From NCBI RefSeq assembly GCF_014279875.1, contig NZ_CP047952.1, positions 558,001 to 622,000 of the forward strand: DNA of 64,000 nucleotides, read 5' to 3'. The stretch comes from Synechococcus sp. MEDNS5. GTDB taxonomy: Bacteria > Cyanobacteriota > Cyanobacteriia > PCC-6307 > Cyanobiaceae. A model generated the notes under the pieces. It saw only the letters and a program-made list of their open reading frames with translations, ran no database searches and was not told the origin of the DNA. This document shows, one piece after another, positions 46,675 to 53,197 of the stretch (within the stretch, counting starts at the first letter, position 1; each line of letters opens with the position of its first letter). The translations under genes and the position numbers were made by a program.

Positions 46675-46788
46675 TTACTCAACTGGGCCGATTACTTGGC
46701 GCATGGCGTTGACGAGTTCCTGCAGGTCGTCGTCATTGCTGCACACATGCGTGCAGGCTCTCAGGCAGCTCGGATCGGCGAGGTCGCG
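46675..46788 (-). repeat. Second copy of the 114-base direct repeat (tail of the aminotransferase gene)
   Basis: This is the intact counterpart of 45758-45871. Both copies have the same orientation and both end in TAA in the same frame. They bracket the COQ4-like gene and about 110 bases in front of it. Confidence 0.85.
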
Positions 46789-47919
46789 GATCCAGATGCC
46801 TTGATCTCCCAGTCGTTTCACCACCCGCGCCGGTTGCAGCGCAGTGGCTGTCTGGTCGAGCGCAAAACTCACCAATCCTGCAGCGGGAGGGCCATCGAGC
46901 AGAGGCATCACCCCGGGAACGGCCGCGAGCTCTTGCCAGAGACGCTCACTGAGAAGGCGAATGCGTTCCAGGCGCTGGCCTGGTCCCCCCTCCTGTTCCA
47001 GCAGATCCAGGGAACAGCGCAGCCCTGCCATCAGCGGTACACAACTGGTGGCCACTTCGAATCTGCGGCTGTCGGCGTGGAAAGGATGGGGATCGTCGAG
47101 GGACGCTCGGGTTTCATCGCGCAGGCTCCGCCATCCGATCAAGGTTGGCTTGGACTCCTGGAGCACACGCTCTGACAGAGCGACCCCGCCAAGTCCCTCA
47201 GGGCCGCAGGCCCATTTGTGACCTGTAAAGGCATAGATGTCTGCGGCGGCAGCGGCCTCATCAACTGGTATTTGGCCCACACTTTGGGCTGCATCCACCA
47301 AGAGAAATGGTTTGGCAGGGTGCTGTTGAAGTTGGGCGGCGACGGCGGCGATCGGCATCCGCTGTCCGGTGTTCCAGAGCAGATGGGAGAGCACCACCAG
47401 GCGGGTTTTTGAGGTGAGCTGCTGCTCGAGGGCCTCCAGCACGGCCGTGTCGGTCTGGTCCTGATCGTTGCGCCCTCCCCGCAGATGCTTCACGGGAAGC
47501 TCATTCACGCTGAGGCCCATCCGGCGGGCGAGTTCCAGGCAGGCTGCCACCACACCGGGATGCTCACAGTCGCCGATCAGGATGTGATCGCCTTCGCTGA
47601 TGGGTAGTCCCCATAGCGGCAGAACGCAGCCACTGGTTACGTTTTCACTTAAGGCCAAGCGATGGGGAGGGACGCCGCAAAGCATGGCCAGCTGCGCCCG
47701 CGTGCTGTTCACCTCGGCGCTGACGTAGGGCCAGACATCCGTGGTGAACGGACCCAGCTGCTGCATCCGTTTCCAGCTGGCCGTGATCGCATCTAAGGAG
47801 GGATCGGGCAAGGGTCCTTGCCCCCCGTAGTTGAAATAGGTCTTGCCGCTTAGGGCTGGGCAGAGGTCTCTCAGCATGCGTTCAGGAGAGGGGGGATGGA
47901 TGGGGCGGTTCAGGCTCAT
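46675..47919 (-). CDS. Class V aminotransferase / cysteine desulfurase-like
   Basis: The 414-residue PLP enzyme begins with an AGGAGG site upstream of the ATG at 47919. It has TYFNYGGQGPLPDPSLDAI, ALSENVTSGCVLPLWGL, LVLSHLLWNTGQ-type and LLVDAAQSVGQIPVD segments, and the PLP lysine in YAFTGHKWACGPEGLGG. It resembles the isopenicillin-N-epimerase/SufS-like branch. A cysteine for persulfide chemistry is not obvious in the usual place, although the tail carries CLRACTHVC. A cyanobacterial cystine C-S lyase-type role is possible; the substrate is not known. Confidence 0.85.
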   Translation of the reverse strand: MSLNRPIHPPSPERMLRDLCPALSGKTYFNYGGQGPLPDPSLDAITASWKRMQQLGPFTTDVWPYVSAEVNSTRAQLAMLCGVPPHRLALSENVTSGCVLPLWGLPISEGDHILIGDCEHPGVVAACLELARRMGLSVNELPVKHLRGGRNDQDQTDTAVLEALEQQLTSKTRLVVLSHLLWNTGQRMPIAAVAAQLQQHPAKPFLLVDAAQSVGQIPVDEAAAAADIYAFTGHKWACGPEGLGGVALSERVLQESKPTLIGWRSLRDETRASLDDPHPFHADSRRFEVATSCVPLMAGLRCSLDLLEQEGGPGQRLERIRLLSERLWQELAAVPGVMPLLDGPPAAGLVSFALDQTATALQPARVVKRLGDQGIWIRDLADPSCLRACTHVCSNDDDLQELVNAMRQVIGPVE

Positions 47920-47936
47920 GATCGCGAACCTCCTCT

Positions 47937-48110
47937 TCAGCTCGCATCGCGGAGCTGCCGGGTGCAGGAGATGGTGCAGTCTCTGTCGTTGAGGTCGCAA
48001 AGGCTGATGCAGTTGAAGTAGATCTCCACGGCATCCCAGGTGGCTTCGCGGTCTTTTTGATTCACCATGACTTGCACCGACCTGATCAGATGGCACTGAC
48101 TTTGGTTCAT
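47937..48110 (-). CDS. Small Cys-containing hypothetical protein
   Basis: This is a 57-residue product from the ATG at 48110, preceded by GGAG. It has five Cys (QCHL, FNCISLC, RDCTISC) and a mixed strand/helix pattern. No family is recognised. It lies 17 bases upstream of the aminotransferase gene on the same strand and is probably co-transcribed, so a link to sulfur or PLP chemistry is a guess. The longer open frame to 48263 overlaps the divergent DUF4079 gene. Confidence 0.6.
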   Translation of the reverse strand: MNQSQCHLIRSVQVMVNQKDREATWDAVEIYFNCISLCDLNDRDCTISCTRQLRDAS

Positions 48111-48237
48111 GACAAGCTCCGCTGACTGCTTCCAGCTTCCTCCTGTTGAAGGGTGAGAACGCGCAAGGCAATCAGCGGATTCCCACCCGGTGGATGTGCT
48201 CAATCCATGGCTACGTTGCCGCTGTGGAGAGATCGCC

Positions 48238-48960
48238 ATGACGACCGTCGACTGGCTCGGCATCCTTCACCCCGCGTTGGCGGTGGTGATCATCTATCCC
48301 TTGATCGGGATGGTGGTGCGATTGGCGATCCAGACCCGGGCACGACGGTTGCAAACGCTGAAGTGTCCTCCCACCGTGGGCCGCGAACACAGTGATCTGG
48401 GCCGCTGGCTGGCGGTGGGTGTTGTGATGCTGGTGCTCGTGGCCCTCACCGTGGCGATTGCGACTGATCAACCCTTGATGGCCTTTCAGGGCGGAGCCGC
48501 GAGGGCTGCGCAGTTGCTGCTGGTGCTTGCTGGCACCCTTGCGGGATTGGCGGCGCTGTGGGTGTCCAAGGCGCCGGGGCTGCGGCTCGCGTTCGTGCTG
48601 ATCACCTGGGCCGGGGTCCTGGGCCTGGGCGCGCAGCCTGAGGTCTGGCGGCTGTCCGACGATCCCTTGTCGCCAGCCTTCTGGCAGTCCCATTACTGGT
48701 CAGGTGTGGCTGTGGTGGGTCTGATGCTGTTTTCTCTCGGTGCCCAGCCAGAGATTCAGCGTGACCTGCGCCTGCGGCGGTTGCATGTCACCGCCAATGT
48801 GCTGGCGGCTGTGTTGTTCGTGGTGCAAGGCATCACCGGAACAAGGGATTTGCTCGAAATCCCCCTGAGCTGGCAGAAGGCAACGATCTATTCCTGCAAC
48901 TTCAACACGCGCACCTGTCCGCCGCCGGCCTCAACACAGCCGCCTGTGATCAGTCCTTGA
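48238..48960 (+). CDS. DUF4079 family membrane protein (copy 2)
   Basis: The 240-residue polytopic protein is a clear paralogue of the one at 13854: WLGILHPALAVVIIYPLIGMVVRL, GREHSDLGRWLA, WQSHYWSGVAVVGLML, RRLHVTANVLAAVLF and QGITGTRDLL. It has an extra C-terminal tail with two Cys (ATIYSCNFNTRTCPPP). The ATG at 48238 has GGAGAG upstream. Its function is unknown. Its stop overlaps the convergent UrtA-like gene by 11 bases. Confidence 0.8.
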   Translation: MTTVDWLGILHPALAVVIIYPLIGMVVRLAIQTRARRLQTLKCPPTVGREHSDLGRWLAVGVVMLVLVALTVAIATDQPLMAFQGGAARAAQLLLVLAGTLAGLAALWVSKAPGLRLAFVLITWAGVLGLGAQPEVWRLSDDPLSPAFWQSHYWSGVAVVGLMLFSLGAQPEIQRDLRLRRLHVTANVLAAVLFVVQGITGTRDLLEIPLSWQKATIYSCNFNTRTCPPPASTQPPVISP

Positions 48961-50224
48961 TCAGGGGCGGCACCCGGTGATCGCAGGTTGCCCCCGCTGA
49001 CTCTGCAAGGTCAGGGTTCCAGGGCATGGGTTCGATCAACCCGAAGTCCTCCAGCACCTTGAAGCCCCCTTTGGCGTCGGCCTGGGCCAAGAGAGACCGC
49101 TTCCTCAGATGAAGGCTGGAACTCACCTGAAGATCACCCTGGGGTGCAGTGAAACGGCTGCCGATGAGCGACTGGCGCACAGCGTCGGTTTCGAGGCTGC
49201 CGGAGGTCTCCACCGCCTGAGCCCAAAGGTGCACCAGGCTGTAGCCAGCCTCTGCCGGGTCGTTGATCACGCGGTGGTAGCCGTAGCGTCGCCGGAAGCG
49301 TTGCGCGAAAGCGGTGGATTCCGGCGTCTTCAGGCTCTCGAAATAACTCCAGCTTGCGTAACTGCCGGCGATATTGCGTCCTCCGATCGCGATGGCCTCT
49401 TCTTCCGATACGGAAAGGCTGAGCACCTTGAGTTCAGAACGCTGATTCAATCCTTGTTTTTGCAGGGCCTGGAAGAAAGCGATATTGCTGTCGCCGTTGA
49501 GGGTATTCACCACGACAACCGGACCTGCGTTGAGAGCGGCTTGAATCTCTGCGATCAGCGGTTCAACAGCTGCACTCCCCAGCGGCAGGTAGCGCTCTTG
49601 AAGCACACGCGCTTGTGCGCGCGCTGCCTGAGCGCGGATGATGCGATTGGCTGTTCTCGGGTAGACGTAATCCGAGCCGATCAGCAGCAGCCGTTTGCTG
49701 TGATTGTCCAGCATCCATTTCAGGGCCGGTTCGGATTGCTGGTTGGGAACCGATCCTCCATACACCACAACAGGAGAGCACTCCTGTCCCTCGTATTGCA
49801 CTGGGTAGAACAGAAGCTTGTTGTTGGTCTCCATCACTGGAACCATGGCTTTGCGGCTGGCGGAGGTCCATCCACCGAAGATCGCCACCACCTTGTCTTC
49901 GTTCAGCAGTCGTTGTGCCTTGCGAGCGAACTCGGCGGGTTCAGACATGCCGTCTTCTTCAATGGCCTCAACCAGCACCGCCCGGCCGTTGAGCCTGAGG
50001 CCGCCAGCGGCATTGATCTCTTCGATCGCCAGACGCTCCGCCTCGGCCACCGTGGCTTCAGAGAGCGCCATGGTGCCGGTGCGCGAGTGCAGGATGCCAA
50101 CGCGGATTGTGGCTGTGTGCTGCGGCTCATTACGGTGCCCGCAGCTGAGGAGCAACAGCGAGCCCAGCAGGCTGACCAGGCTTGAAAGGCTCTTCCGCGT
50201 CGCAGTCGCGATTCCCTGGTTCAT
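48950..50224 (-). CDS. UrtA-family substrate-binding lipoprotein, partner of an ion channel
   Basis: The 424-residue protein has a lipoprotein signal (lipobox LLLLSC, Cys about 28) and a type I periplasmic-binding fold that closely follows urea-binding UrtA. Shared segments include VGILHSRTGTMALSE, RLAIEEINAAGG, FGGWTSASRKAMVPV, LLFYPVQYEGQECSP, PNQQSEPALKWML, LIGSDYVYPRTAN and NTLNGDSNIAFF. It should sit on the periplasmic face of the plasma membrane and bind urea or a short amide. No urtBCDE genes are nearby. Its ATG overlaps the stop of the ligand-gated channel gene as ATGA, so the two are made together. Confidence 0.9.
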   Translation of the reverse strand: MNQGIATATRKSLSSLVSLLGSLLLLSCGHRNEPQHTATIRVGILHSRTGTMALSEATVAEAERLAIEEINAAGGLRLNGRAVLVEAIEEDGMSEPAEFARKAQRLLNEDKVVAIFGGWTSASRKAMVPVMETNNKLLFYPVQYEGQECSPVVVYGGSVPNQQSEPALKWMLDNHSKRLLLIGSDYVYPRTANRIIRAQAARAQARVLQERYLPLGSAAVEPLIAEIQAALNAGPVVVVNTLNGDSNIAFFQALQKQGLNQRSELKVLSLSVSEEEAIAIGGRNIAGSYASWSYFESLKTPESTAFAQRFRRRYGYHRVINDPAEAGYSLVHLWAQAVETSGSLETDAVRQSLIGSRFTAPQGDLQVSSSLHLRKRSLLAQADAKGGFKVLEDFGLIEPMPWNPDLAESAGATCDHRVPPLIKD

Positions 50225-51363
50225 CGTCTTCCCCAGCTGATCACCGCGGTCAGCACCAGCAGGCCCAGGGAGAGGTACTGAAAGCGCGTGTCGGCTTGAT
50301 TGATCCGCCGCATGGTGCTGGCCTTCTGCTCATCCGGTGCAGCCACGTAGGTGTTGTACCCCCACGTGAACAACCCGAACAGAGCCATGGCAATCAGATA
50401 GCTCGTTGTGAAGAGATCATCGAGGAAGGTGGTGTAAGGAAGCTTCGGCAAGGAGGAGTGGTACGACTGCTGCAGAAAAATCAGGGTGAGCAGGGCCGTT
50501 GACGGAATGGCAAGGCGTACATCGGAGAGGGTTCCCTCCACCGATGGCGCCATCAGCACGATCGAATTGATGATCATCAGGGGGATGATCCAGTTCACAA
50601 TCCCTGGCCACAGATTCGACTGATAAATCACTTCCAAGCGCACCTGGCTGAGCTGGGGGCGATACCAGGTGCCCAGGCTGTTGGAGCTCCGGCGTAGAAA
50701 TGGTTTGAAACTGGCGCCCTGAAGCTGGTAGCCGCTGAGGGAGCCCAGTTCCCCCACGAGATTGTCGTTGGAGGGAGCAGGCAGCAGACGCAGATCGGCG
50801 TATTTCTGGGAGGTCCAGAGGGGTTCGAGCTCGATGATGATCGGCACCTTCAGCACATCGAAGGGATCTCTTCGGAAGTCCACCGCATCGTCGTAGAACC
50901 GACTCGAGAAGCGGAAGAGCAGCTGATGTCGTCCTCCCGAGAGCTCCCGCGGCCCTGCAGCGGATGGCTCAAAGGTGGAGTCCCATGTCTCAATGCGATT
51001 GGTCAGTGAAATCAGATCGGCTGGCTCAGTGTCGTAACGCTCAAGTAGCTCCTCCACCTCGGGGAGCCACTCCAACCAGATTTCACCGTCGGCTGTGAAG
51101 GTGCGCGAGTTGAGATTGAGTTCGTAGATCTTGTCGAGATGAATACCCGCATAGATGAACGGGTGTTTGGCGATGAGCTCCTCGGAGGGCTGGACGGCCT
51201 CCAGACCTGCGGTGCCTTCCATCTCCTCCTGCATCGCGTCAGGGTGAATCGTTTCCGCACTCGGGCCGCGATCAACGATGGCGCGTGTGCCCAAAAGCAG
51301 AGTGATTGCCAGAACCGAGGCAATGAGCAGAAACCTGAAGCGTTTTGAGATGGTCCGGCGCAT
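50221..51363 (-). CDS. Pentameric ligand-gated ion channel (GLIC/Cys-loop type)
   Basis: The 380-residue protein has an N-terminal hydrophobic signal/anchor (about 11-25), an acidic linker (about 30-65), then an extracellular beta-sandwich starting FIYAGIHLDKIYELNL with ADGEIWLEW. The pro-loop is DFRRDPFD (162-169), matching the GLIC pro-loop and lacking the Cys pair of animal receptors. Four membrane segments follow: M1 (about 251-272), M2 (281-302), M3 (317-340) and M4 (361-378). The M2-M3 loop is LPKLPYTTFLDD, and the short M3-M4 loop is typical of bacteria. The ATG at 51363 has AGGGG upstream. It would gate ions on ligand binding; the UrtA-like lipoprotein is the obvious ligand partner. 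Confidence 0.9.
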   Translation of the reverse strand: MRRTISKRFRFLLIASVLAITLLLGTRAIVDRGPSAETIHPDAMQEEMEGTAGLEAVQPSEELIAKHPFIYAGIHLDKIYELNLNSRTFTADGEIWLEWLPEVEELLERYDTEPADLISLTNRIETWDSTFEPSAAGPRELSGGRHQLLFRFSSRFYDDAVDFRRDPFDVLKVPIIIELEPLWTSQKYADLRLLPAPSNDNLVGELGSLSGYQLQGASFKPFLRRSSNSLGTWYRPQLSQVRLEVIYQSNLWPGIVNWIIPLMIINSIVLMAPSVEGTLSDVRLAIPSTALLTLIFLQQSYHSSLPKLPYTTFLDDLFTTSYLIAMALFGLFTWGYNTYVAAPDEQKASTMRRINQADTRFQYLSLGLLVLTAVISWGRR

Positions 51364-51384
51364 TCGTCCCCTGGCGTTCACCCT

Positions 51385-51630
51385 TTAGAGCACTTGCACC
51401 ACTTCGCTCACCTCGGGAATGGACTCGCGCATTTTGCGTTCGATGCCCATCTTCAGCGTCATGGTGCTGCTGGGGCAGCTGCCGCAGGCTCCTTGAAGAC
51501 GCACCTTCACCACTGGCCCGTCAATCTCAACCACTTCCACGTTGCCACCGTCAGCCATTAGGAAGGGGCGAAGCTCGTCGAGCACCTTCTCCACGTTTTC
51601 GCTGGTCAGCGGCATCGTTTCGGAGCTCAT
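51385..51630 (-). CDS. Nfu/NifU C-terminal domain iron-sulfur scaffold protein
   Basis: The 81-residue protein is a stand-alone NifU-C domain: [25 protein letters not shown], then [22 protein letters not shown] with the CxxC cluster-binding motif. It carries a [4Fe-4S] cluster to target proteins, in cyanobacteria chiefly for photosystem I. It is 21 bases upstream of the channel gene on the same strand, so the channel operon may share its promoter. It is divergent from mqo. Confidence 0.93.
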
Positions 51631-51715
51631 GGCCGGATTCAAGACGTTCAGACCCAGCGTAGGCATGCGCCCGTCGAGGTTGATCCATACGCTTGGAGAA
51701 GGGTGACTCTGTGCT

Positions 51716-53197
51716 GTGGACCGATACGACGCTGTGCTGGTGGGTGCCGGGATCATGAGTGCCACCCTGGCATCGCTTCTGCATGCCCTGGACCCAAGGC
51801 TCAGGCTGCTGATGGTGGAAGGCTTGGAGGCCCCAGCGCTGGAAAGCAGCGCCGCGGCGAACAACGCCGGCACCGGCCATGCGGCCAACTGCGAACTCAA
51901 TTACACCCCCCAGCGCGATGACGGATCAGTCGCGACGGACAAGGCCCTGGCGATCAATGCGTCGTTTGAACGCAGTCTTGAGTTCTGGGCCTCACTGGCG
52001 GAGCTGGGATCCCTTCAACCCAATCGTTTTCTGCATCGTGTTCCCCACCTGAGCTTCGTGTGGGGCGAGCAGGATGTGGCGTTTCTGCGGCAGCGGCACC
52101 GCCAACTCAGTGCTTTGCCGGCGTTTGCAGCGATGGAGTGGAGCACGGATGCCAGTGAGATCGCCGAATGGATTCCGCTGATGATGGCAGGACGGAATGG
52201 GCATGAGCCCCTCGCTGCCACGCGTGTTCAGCGAGGGATGGATGTGGATTTCGGCAGCCTGACGCAGATGCTGCTGGCACCCCTACAGAATGCAGGAGCT
52301 TTGGACGTGCTGTTCGGCACCCGTGTGCAGAGGCTCAGGCGCAGCCGCACCCAACAGATGACGTCTGGTGATTGGCAGATGGATCTGCGCAGTCCCTCCG
52401 GCGGCCGTCATGTGAGGGCTCCATTTGTGTTCCTGGGTGCAGGAGGCGGTGCCTTGCCGCTGCTTCAGAGCAGTGGGATTTCCGAGGCTGCCGACTTTGC
52501 TGGGTTTCCTGTGAGCGGCCAATGGTTGGTCTGCCAGCAACCGGAACTTGTGGATCATCACTTCGCCAAGGTGTACGGGAAAGCCAAGGTGGGAGCACCA
52601 CCGATGTCGGTTCCCCATCTCGACACCCGCTGGATTGATGGGAAAAGGTCGTTGCTGTTCGGTCCCTATGCCGGCTTCAGCAGCAAGTTCCTCAAGACGG
52701 GCTCGCTGTTGGATCTGCCGAAGTCGGTTCGCATCAGCAATCTGCAGCCCATGCTTCAAGTGGGAGTGAACAACCTCCCCTTGGTGAACTACCTGATCAC
52801 GCAGCTGCGCCAAAGCCGCACCGATCGCATGGATGCCCTTCGGGATTTCCTTCCGCAAGCCAGGGAGCAGGACTGGACTCTTTCCGTGGCCGGTCAGCGT
52901 GTGCAGATCATCAAGCGAACGCCTGAAGGCGGTCGCCTGCAGATGGGAACCGAAGTGGTGAGCTCCGCGGATGGCTCTTTGGCTGCCCTGCTCGGAGCCT
53001 CCCCGGGGGCCAGCACGTCAGTGTCGATCATGCTCACCGTGCTTGAGCGTTGTTTCTCAGAGCCACTGGCGACAGCCGCCTGGCAAGAGCGCCTCAGGGC
53101 ACTGATCCCCTCCTTCGGCCAAGACCTCAACGCGGATGGAGACGCTCTGCGCCGAACCCGTGAGCGCAGCGATGCGCTTCTCGGCTTAGCTGGCTGA
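51716..53197 (+). CDS. mqo: Malate:quinone oxidoreductase
   Basis: The 493-residue flavoprotein has [19 protein letters not shown] at the N-terminus, [48 protein letters not shown], and [18 protein letters not shown], all characteristic of Mqo. It oxidises malate to oxaloacetate and reduces membrane quinone. The start is a GTG. It overlaps the end of the convergent VTT-domain gene by 12 bases. Confidence 0.94.

Follow-up and report, generated by a model that had tools for sequence, protein, structure and literature searches.

A pentameric ligand-gated ion channel gene paired with an UrtA-type binding lipoprotein gene in Synechococcus: a candidate two-part chemoreceptor

The channel-binder pair and its two products

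Our subject is a two-gene unit of Synechococcus sp. MEDNS5, located in a 64,000-nt stretch of its genome (NZ_CP047952.1, 558,001-622,000; hereafter the window, in whose positions all coordinates are given), in which a gene for a subunit of a pentameric ligand-gated ion channel (pLGIC) is paired with one for a lipoprotein of the UrtA family of binding proteins; we call these the channel and the binder (Table 1). The genome holding the window is a single contig of 2.44 Mb that is 99.98% complete. The pair is well supported as a functional unit, and its mechanism is a proposal.

The channel protein presents the pLGIC plan that the original prediction had read from it: the pro-loop DFRRDPFD, the M2-M3 loop LPKLPYTTF, four C-terminal helices and a short M3-M4 segment, to which we add an N-terminal hydrophobic helix. 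A Pfam search with this protein returned no match, and NCBIfam returned LGIC_1 alone and weakly (E 0.19); the PF02932 profile matched nothing in its genome, and nothing in any of 14 control genomes either, making that search uninformative. A phmmer search against the PDB recovers ELIC (E 1.7e-4, residues 70-333). A profile of the channel's own clade (A3, 12 rows) reaches ELIC at 4.3e-7 and GLIC at 3.2e-5, and a broad profile (A1, 16 relatives) reaches them at 8.4e-32 and 4e-23, the matches listed (the best 60 of 248) being by name bacterial pLGICs or their chimaeras throughout. A profile search had been named beforehand as a possible refutation, and it places the channel inside the pLGIC superfamily; by these alignments the protein is a member, homologous over both the extracellular domain (ECD) and the transmembrane domain (TMD).

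A single-chain AlphaFold2 (AF2) model (mean predicted local distance difference test score 54.6; alignment input of five sequences), which we used for the order of helices and strands and for one PDB fold search, gives an N-terminal helix, a strand-rich domain (69-246) and four helices (251-378); Foldseek with this model has sTeLIC and GLIC on top (best E 3.6e-12), and ELIC and GABA-A entries within the top 50. Aligned to ELIC, M2 has T at 6' and L at 9' (prime numbering) and, at -2', an acidic residue that is D or E in all 12 clade rows; by likeness to GLIC, this residue may favor cation selectivity. The subunit presumably assembles as a homopentamer around an ion pore. The ratio of nonsynonymous to synonymous substitution rates (dN/dS) against six orthologues is 0.10-0.18, indicating purifying selection, and the nearest named relative, from Synechococcus WH7803, is 94% identical.

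The binder matches PF13433 with 418 bits (E 4.3e-125) and the UrtA structure 7s6e with E 1.1e-112, the amide sensor AmiC (1pea) being more distant (E 4.8e-46). Along with the open reading frames (ORFs) and the lipobox, these matches bear out the coordinates, the ATGA overlap and the UrtA-family lipoprotein assigned earlier from the letters alone. Against the NCBIfam UrtA model TIGR03407 (cut-off 492.75) the binder scores 443.2 bits and two further members of its clade 440.8 and 436.4, so that 3/3 fall below the cut-off, and four canonical UrtAs score 563-612 (4/4 above). In a tree of 97 binding proteins, the ten channel-linked binders form one clade (Shimodaira-Hasegawa-like approximate likelihood-ratio test, SH-aLRT, 100), and the 18 remaining stand-alone proteins of UrtA type fall outside it. 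By scores and tree, then, the binder is of the UrtA family yet outside canonical UrtA. Despite diverged signal peptides, a lipobox-type Cys near the N terminus is found in 10/10 binders; dN/dS is 0.15-0.34 in six comparisons, again indicating purifying selection. Among UrtA-type proteins elsewhere, a permease match lies close beside those of loci L143 to L147 and of L153, L155, L157 and L161 (L and G numbers are our labels for loci and genomes), and a transporter-like gene, read by eye, starts beside those of L148 to L151.

Table 1. Features of the channel-binder locus, in window positions
Feature	Position	Strand	Basis
pLGIC (Cys-loop/pro-loop type) channel subunit, 380 aa	50221..51363	-	ORF; ELIC matches; dN/dS
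Possible alternative GTG start of channel	51381, 18 bases upstream of the start of the 380-aa ORF	-	ORF
N-terminal hydrophobic helix, residues 7-30, signal anchor or signal peptide	51274..51345	-	helix in AF2 model; hydropathy peak
Extracellular beta domain, residues about 68-250	50614..51162	-	AF2 strands (low confidence); ELIC alignment from residue 70
Pro-loop DFRRDPFD, residues 162-169	50857..50880	-	sequence; P167 and F168 invariant in 16 diverse rows
Membrane domain M1-M4, residues 251-378	50230..50613	-	four AF2-model helices
Pore helix M2, residues 280-304	50452..50526	-	alignment to ELIC M2
M2-M3 loop LPKLPYTTF, residues 305-313	50425..50451	-	sequence; L305 and P306 invariant in 16 rows
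ATGA stop/start overlap of channel and binder, 4 bases	50221..50224	-	seen in 10/10 orthologous pairs
UrtA-family binding lipoprotein, 424 aa	48950..50224	-	PF13433 E 4.3e-125; PDB UrtA E 1.1e-112; clade separate from canonical UrtA
Lipobox LLSC, lipidated Cys residue 28	50141..50152	-	sequence
Ligand pocket part 1: W119, S121, Y140, Q143, E145 (UrtA W120, S122, Y141, Q144, E146)	49790..49870	-	alignment
Ligand pocket part 2: Y186, Y188 (UrtA Y190, F192)	49661..49669	-	alignment
Pocket N243 (UrtA N246)	49496..49498	-	alignment
Pocket S271 (UrtA S274)	49412..49414	-	alignment
NifU-domain gene, directly upstream of channel, same strand	51385..51900	-	ORF; PF01106
DUF4079 gene, convergent with binder	48190..48960	+	ORF and domain search

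Linkage of channels and binding proteins

A search of 99 genomes recovered intact members of the channel clade (at least 69% identity) in ten genomes and the binder subfamily (at least 65% identity) in the same ten, adjoining the channel and on the same strand with the ATGA overlap in every one. Thus, in the survey of adjacency that the original prediction had proposed, the two genes are neighbors wherever they occur. In a wider sample of 400 family genomes, none besides these ten has the binder subfamily, the next matches listed being at most 50% identical; no instance of one gene lost and the other kept was seen among the ten. The MEDNS5 genome has only two PF13458 (Peripla_BP_6) genes, each adjoining one of its two strong pLGIC genes. 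At the second of these channels (L024), a LivK-type binding protein gene is convergent on it, and the other side is occupied by a gene for a pyridoxal phosphate-dependent enzyme, by eye trpB. With two genes for type I periplasmic binding proteins (PBP-I) among an estimated 2,600 or so, the chance that both lie beside the two channels is on the order of one in a million. A chance neighborhood of channel and binder is rejected on these grounds, i.e., that the only two PF13458 genes both lie beside channels and that pairing is strict over 400 genomes.

The association extends well beyond this clade. We took a census of pLGIC genes in cyanobacteria, 132 in all (105 in the window's family and 27 in others; 118 fetched regions and six short search loci). 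Of these, 75 either have a gene for a type I periplasmic binding protein next to them, with fewer than 150 bases between ORFs, or are fused to such a protein, a proportion that is not an unbiased rate because the genes were chosen by hand from ranked lists favoring strong hits. Left out of the count were three pieces aligning over fewer than 230 residues and a further, partial copy of a channel already included; L029 gave no scored channel ORF. The arrangements comprise 50 divergent, 10 same-strand and six convergent pairs, nine fusions and 57 genes standing alone; all 66 neighbor cases fall within the window's family, where 39 channels are alone, and the other families contribute only the nine fused and 18 lone genes. 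Within the genus, 19 of the 31 genomes searched have a match, and their 27 intact channels divide into 10 in window-type pairs, six convergent with a binder gene, seven divergent from one and four without one. The fused proteins start, where examined, with an N-terminal helix, followed by the Peripla_BP_6/PF13458 domain (in 9/9) and then the channel. Channel and binder distances correlate with r 0.85 over the 50 divergent pairs and 0.92 over the 10 same-strand pairs, which fits co-evolution and shared descent alike and does not separate the two. Where other channels have LivK-type partners, these match binding proteins for Leu/Ile/Val and for amino acids/amides.

In the channel tree, the sister group of the window clade consists of four rows, one of which (L134, from another genus) has an UrtA-type neighbor, convergent with an 11-base overlap. 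That binder nests among canonical UrtAs (SH-aLRT 99 and 85) and not in the window clade, and it scores 558 bits against TIGR03407, above the cut-off; hence, an UrtA-type partner was probably gained twice. Very long branches in this tree (L032, the second gene of L103, and L028) may represent distant members.

Further channel-like genes came to light in the same searches. Two tandem genes of G541 (L115:900-4463 and L115:4550-8101, minus strand; 1187 and 1183 codons) each encode a pLGIC flanked by a Peripla_BP_6 domain before it and a type II solute-binding domain (SBP_bac_1, from residue 799) at the C terminus, thus placing the pLGIC between two different binding proteins. G155, G177, G210, G224, G128 and others have weak pLGIC-profile matches (E about 1e-12 to 1e-15) confined to the ECD part, in ORFs of roughly 350-384 aa that may belong to a more divergent family of channels. 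No relative of channel or binder was found on viral contigs.

As for the immediate surroundings, the ATGA overlap is expected to couple translation of channel and binder, and co-transcription with the NifU-domain gene, a homologue of which is present at 7/10 pair loci, is possible. The stretch running from an aminotransferase through the DUF4079 and NifU-domain genes to Mqo (46675-53197) recurs in the genus (also L036, L037 and L039), and channel-binder units vary at this spot: copies of the stretch without the UrtA-type pair have a LivK-type unit on the far side of the aminotransferase. In L033 (G008) and L040 (G029), an UrtA-type same-strand unit and a LivK-type divergent unit occupy one locus, about 2.5 to 3 kb apart. 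Broken extra channel copies lie near paired units at L040:7537-8690 (G029) and G008:C2:1032524-1032786, and at L031:4394-4960 (G035) the channel gene is in pieces, with three separate matches on one contig.

The urea pocket and the urea context of the pair genomes

The structure from MIT 9313 is the source for eight urea-contact residues reported as conserved in UrtA (PMC10392092); all eight are kept in 10/10 binders. A ninth contact, UrtA Phe192, is Tyr in all ten, as in some canonical UrtAs; this is no sign of a changed ligand, because the UrtAs of urea-transport type in L148 to L151 and L146 share it. Sixteen canonical UrtAs share 169 invariant columns; in the binder clade 70 of these have changed, and none of the eight pocket residues is among them (chance p about 0.012). 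The pocket thus appears modestly retained beyond drift, and the binder may bind urea. Elsewhere, domains of UrtA type do act as sensors: three class-level relatives have a PF13433 domain joined to a histidine kinase or an adenylate cyclase (L158:2840-5803, L159:2961-5987, L160:2893-5556), the pocket residues being largely altered in both cyclase fusions.

Searches of the MEDNS5 genome found neither the urease alpha subunit (urea carboxylase and urea channels lay outside the search) nor an UrtB/LivH-type permease, nor any PF02653 permease, where the UrtB and PF02653 searches match in 11 and 12 of the 14 control genomes, respectively. The same three absences hold for G009 and G010, all three genomes being at least 99% complete. 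Urease alpha was likewise not found in G015 (G029 being outside that search), and it is present in G008 and G016. The PF02653 permease is absent from 5/10 pair genomes (G000, G009, G010, G015 and G029, of which G015 is only 73% and G029 only 85% complete), each with a single UrtA-type protein; the other five have permeases and a second, canonical UrtA. Since no UrtB or PF02653 permease was found, the binder's own genome offers it no permease from its family. A transport role for it there is unlikely, and we rejected one in urea transport on the absence of a permease. With neither a urea permease nor urease found, the binder is therefore most likely a detachable sensor of the channel. The original prediction spoke of a urea/amide receptor for a nutrient; the kept urea-type pocket agrees with the former, and the nutrient part is doubtful. 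In this strain, urea would rather be a cue, or the ligand another small amide, because none of the three components searched for was found (other routes for urea being outside the search). In the literature, 36 cyanobacteria are reported to be without any of the urea genes (PMC6737895).

A proposed two-part receptor, its alternatives and known relatives

Taken together, these observations lead us to propose, at a probability of about 0.6, that channel and binder form a two-part chemoreceptor gated by the loaded binder. To elaborate, the channel gene would yield a homopentameric pLGIC in the plasma membrane, and the lipid-anchored, UrtA-derived "Venus flytrap" on its periplasmic side would close around urea or a small amide resembling it. 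Once loaded, the binder would dock on the channel ECD and shift gating, with the gate opening or closing as a result, so that a periplasmic solute would be translated into a cation flux reporting it. The closing of the flytrap on urea or an amide is a prediction that homology and the pocket support. The strict linkage and the fusions in relatives suggest that binder and channel make contact and that this affects gating; urea as the ligand, cation selectivity and the downstream response are further presumed parts of the scheme. The original prediction had the ligand handed over to the channel, and direct docking of the closed binder is probably at least as likely.

Several observations weigh against this proposal. 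A binder partner is not universal: 57/132 channels, five of them with less than 1.2 kb of sequence on one side, have no adjoining binder gene, and neither do three of the four sister-clade channels. The fourth, L134, has a binder above the UrtA cut-off and another UrtA in its genome, so this binder may simply be a stray duplicate. At the level of structure, the Foldseek matches have a TM-score of only about 0.3 and a root-mean-square deviation of about 20 Å, probably due to misplaced domains in the model; given these values and the poor AF2 model, the fold assignment rests on sequence. The pocket statistic makes no correction for the slower change of buried residues, and the 16 canonical rows do not include L156 and L157, stand-alone UrtA-type proteins whose pockets are altered and the second of which adjoins UrtB. 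Finally, no NtcA-type site (GTA-N8-TAC) occurs in the window, where 0.35 would be expected by chance.

A variant of the proposal keeps the two-part receptor and changes its ligand to an aliphatic amide, an amino-acid amide or another neutral solute. The Tyr at UrtA F192 in 10/10 binders, the match to AmiC, the missing urea permease and urease and the resemblance of the LivK-type partners to Leu/Ile/Val- and amino acid/amide-binding proteins all speak for such a ligand; the presence of all eight conserved urea contacts speaks against it, and we judge it unlikely, if worth keeping in sight.

The main rival to gating by the loaded binder casts the lipoprotein as a concentrator: the channel would bind the ligand in a site of its own ECD, just as ELIC binds amines, and the lipoprotein would only capture the ligand and raise its local level, with no gating by contact. 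Such a role was proposed for the periplasmic binding protein partners of pLGICs in 2004 by Tasneem et al. (PMC549065), and the full ECD that the channel keeps is consistent with it, as are the channels that lack an adjoining binder gene. The fusion of the binding domain to the channel in nine proteins favors physical coupling, though a fusion is compatible with concentration, too; we hold this alternative to be improbable on balance.

Already disfavored is an account in which the binder is an orphan urea-uptake protein for some permease of the ATP-binding cassette (ABC) type and stands beside the channel incidentally. Its UrtA family membership and kept urea pocket fit, and products of orphan urtA genes may use other ABC machinery according to a 2021 review (PMC8786288); set against the missing permease (in searches that do match in most controls), the missing urease alpha and the strict pairing with a channel, this account is very unlikely. 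Least credible, and likewise already disfavored, is an artefact of a variable island on which both genes lie with no joint function: the locus does vary, with a different channel-binder unit across the aminotransferase in G012, G026 and G030, where the UrtA-type pair is missing from the spot, and with broken channel copies in G029 and G008, but what varies is the channel-binder units themselves, channel and binder genes also adjoin at other loci, in three arrangements apart from fusion, and chance would put both PBP-I genes beside the two channels only about once in a million.

The preferred two-part receptor has likenesses among several known systems. With ELIC and GLIC, studied as channels without a binder partner, the channel shares homology over ECD and TMD, the pro-loop and the M2-M3 loop, and it differs in its roughly 20% identity, its N-terminal hydrophobic helix with a linker of about 40 residues, and the partner itself. 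AmiC of Pseudomonas, an UrtA-like flytrap as well, is an amide sensor not involved in transport, and unlike the binder it is cytoplasmic and controls an antiterminator. In DeCLIC, too, an extra periplasmic module affects a pLGIC; it belongs to the same chain as the channel and was studied for Ca2+, whereas here a separate small-molecule binder is predicted. UrtA of the UrtABCDE transporter has the same fold family and the eight urea contacts, as described for the MIT 9313 protein (PMC10392092), and differs from the binder, which falls under the NCBI cut-off, forms its own clade, has no UrtB found in its genome and is encoded beside a channel.

The original prediction was correct that bacterial pLGICs fused to or encoded with periplasmic binding proteins were already known: the 2004 study describes PBP-I fusions (Magnetospirillum, Bradyrhizobium) and operons with type II proteins (PBP-II), with a chemoreceptor role proposed (PMC549065). 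The operon types named there are PBP-II and Cache, and the cyanobacterial pLGICs then known are given a simple architecture (PMC549065). As in those systems, where it is either fused on or the product of a neighboring gene, a periplasmic binding protein accompanies a pLGIC core here; the present unit differs in its separate UrtA-family lipoprotein, the ATGA overlap and a genome in which no UrtB-type permease was found; from the linkage, we infer that the binding protein takes part in channel function here. Synechococcus pLGICs are mentioned by Jaiteh 2016, in whose text the words "periplasmic", "fusion" and "operon" are absent (PMC4795631). Among open-licence PMC papers we found no report of an UrtA-type partner of a pLGIC. 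Thus, the association of periplasmic binding proteins with pLGICs has been known since 2004, and what is new is the UrtA-type partner, the missing transporter and a candidate partner for orphan urtA. Such orphans of marine Synechococcus, e.g., in clade IIIa, lack transporter subunits, as the binder does, and in contrast to it, whose neighbor is a pLGIC gene, lie close to phage-associated genes, according to the same 2021 review (PMC8786288).

More broadly, we tentatively suggest, at a little below even odds, that the agonist of such a channel is a ligand-loaded, membrane-tethered binder instead of a small molecule, in effect a detachable receptor subunit, and that the units, which have UrtA- or LivK-type binders in picocyanobacteria and occur as fusions in other cyanobacteria, may constitute a sensory toolkit for organic nitrogen, here for a urea or amide cue in a genome where neither UrtB-type uptake nor urease was found. 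To our knowledge, the native roles of the bacterial relatives of animal neurotransmitter receptors, for which GLIC and ELIC are the standard models, are largely unknown. The unit also offers a candidate partner for the orphan urtA genes, whose partners the 2021 review calls unresolved (PMC8786288). By pointing to a likely partner and a likely ligand class, the operon makes the native gating of such a channel directly testable.

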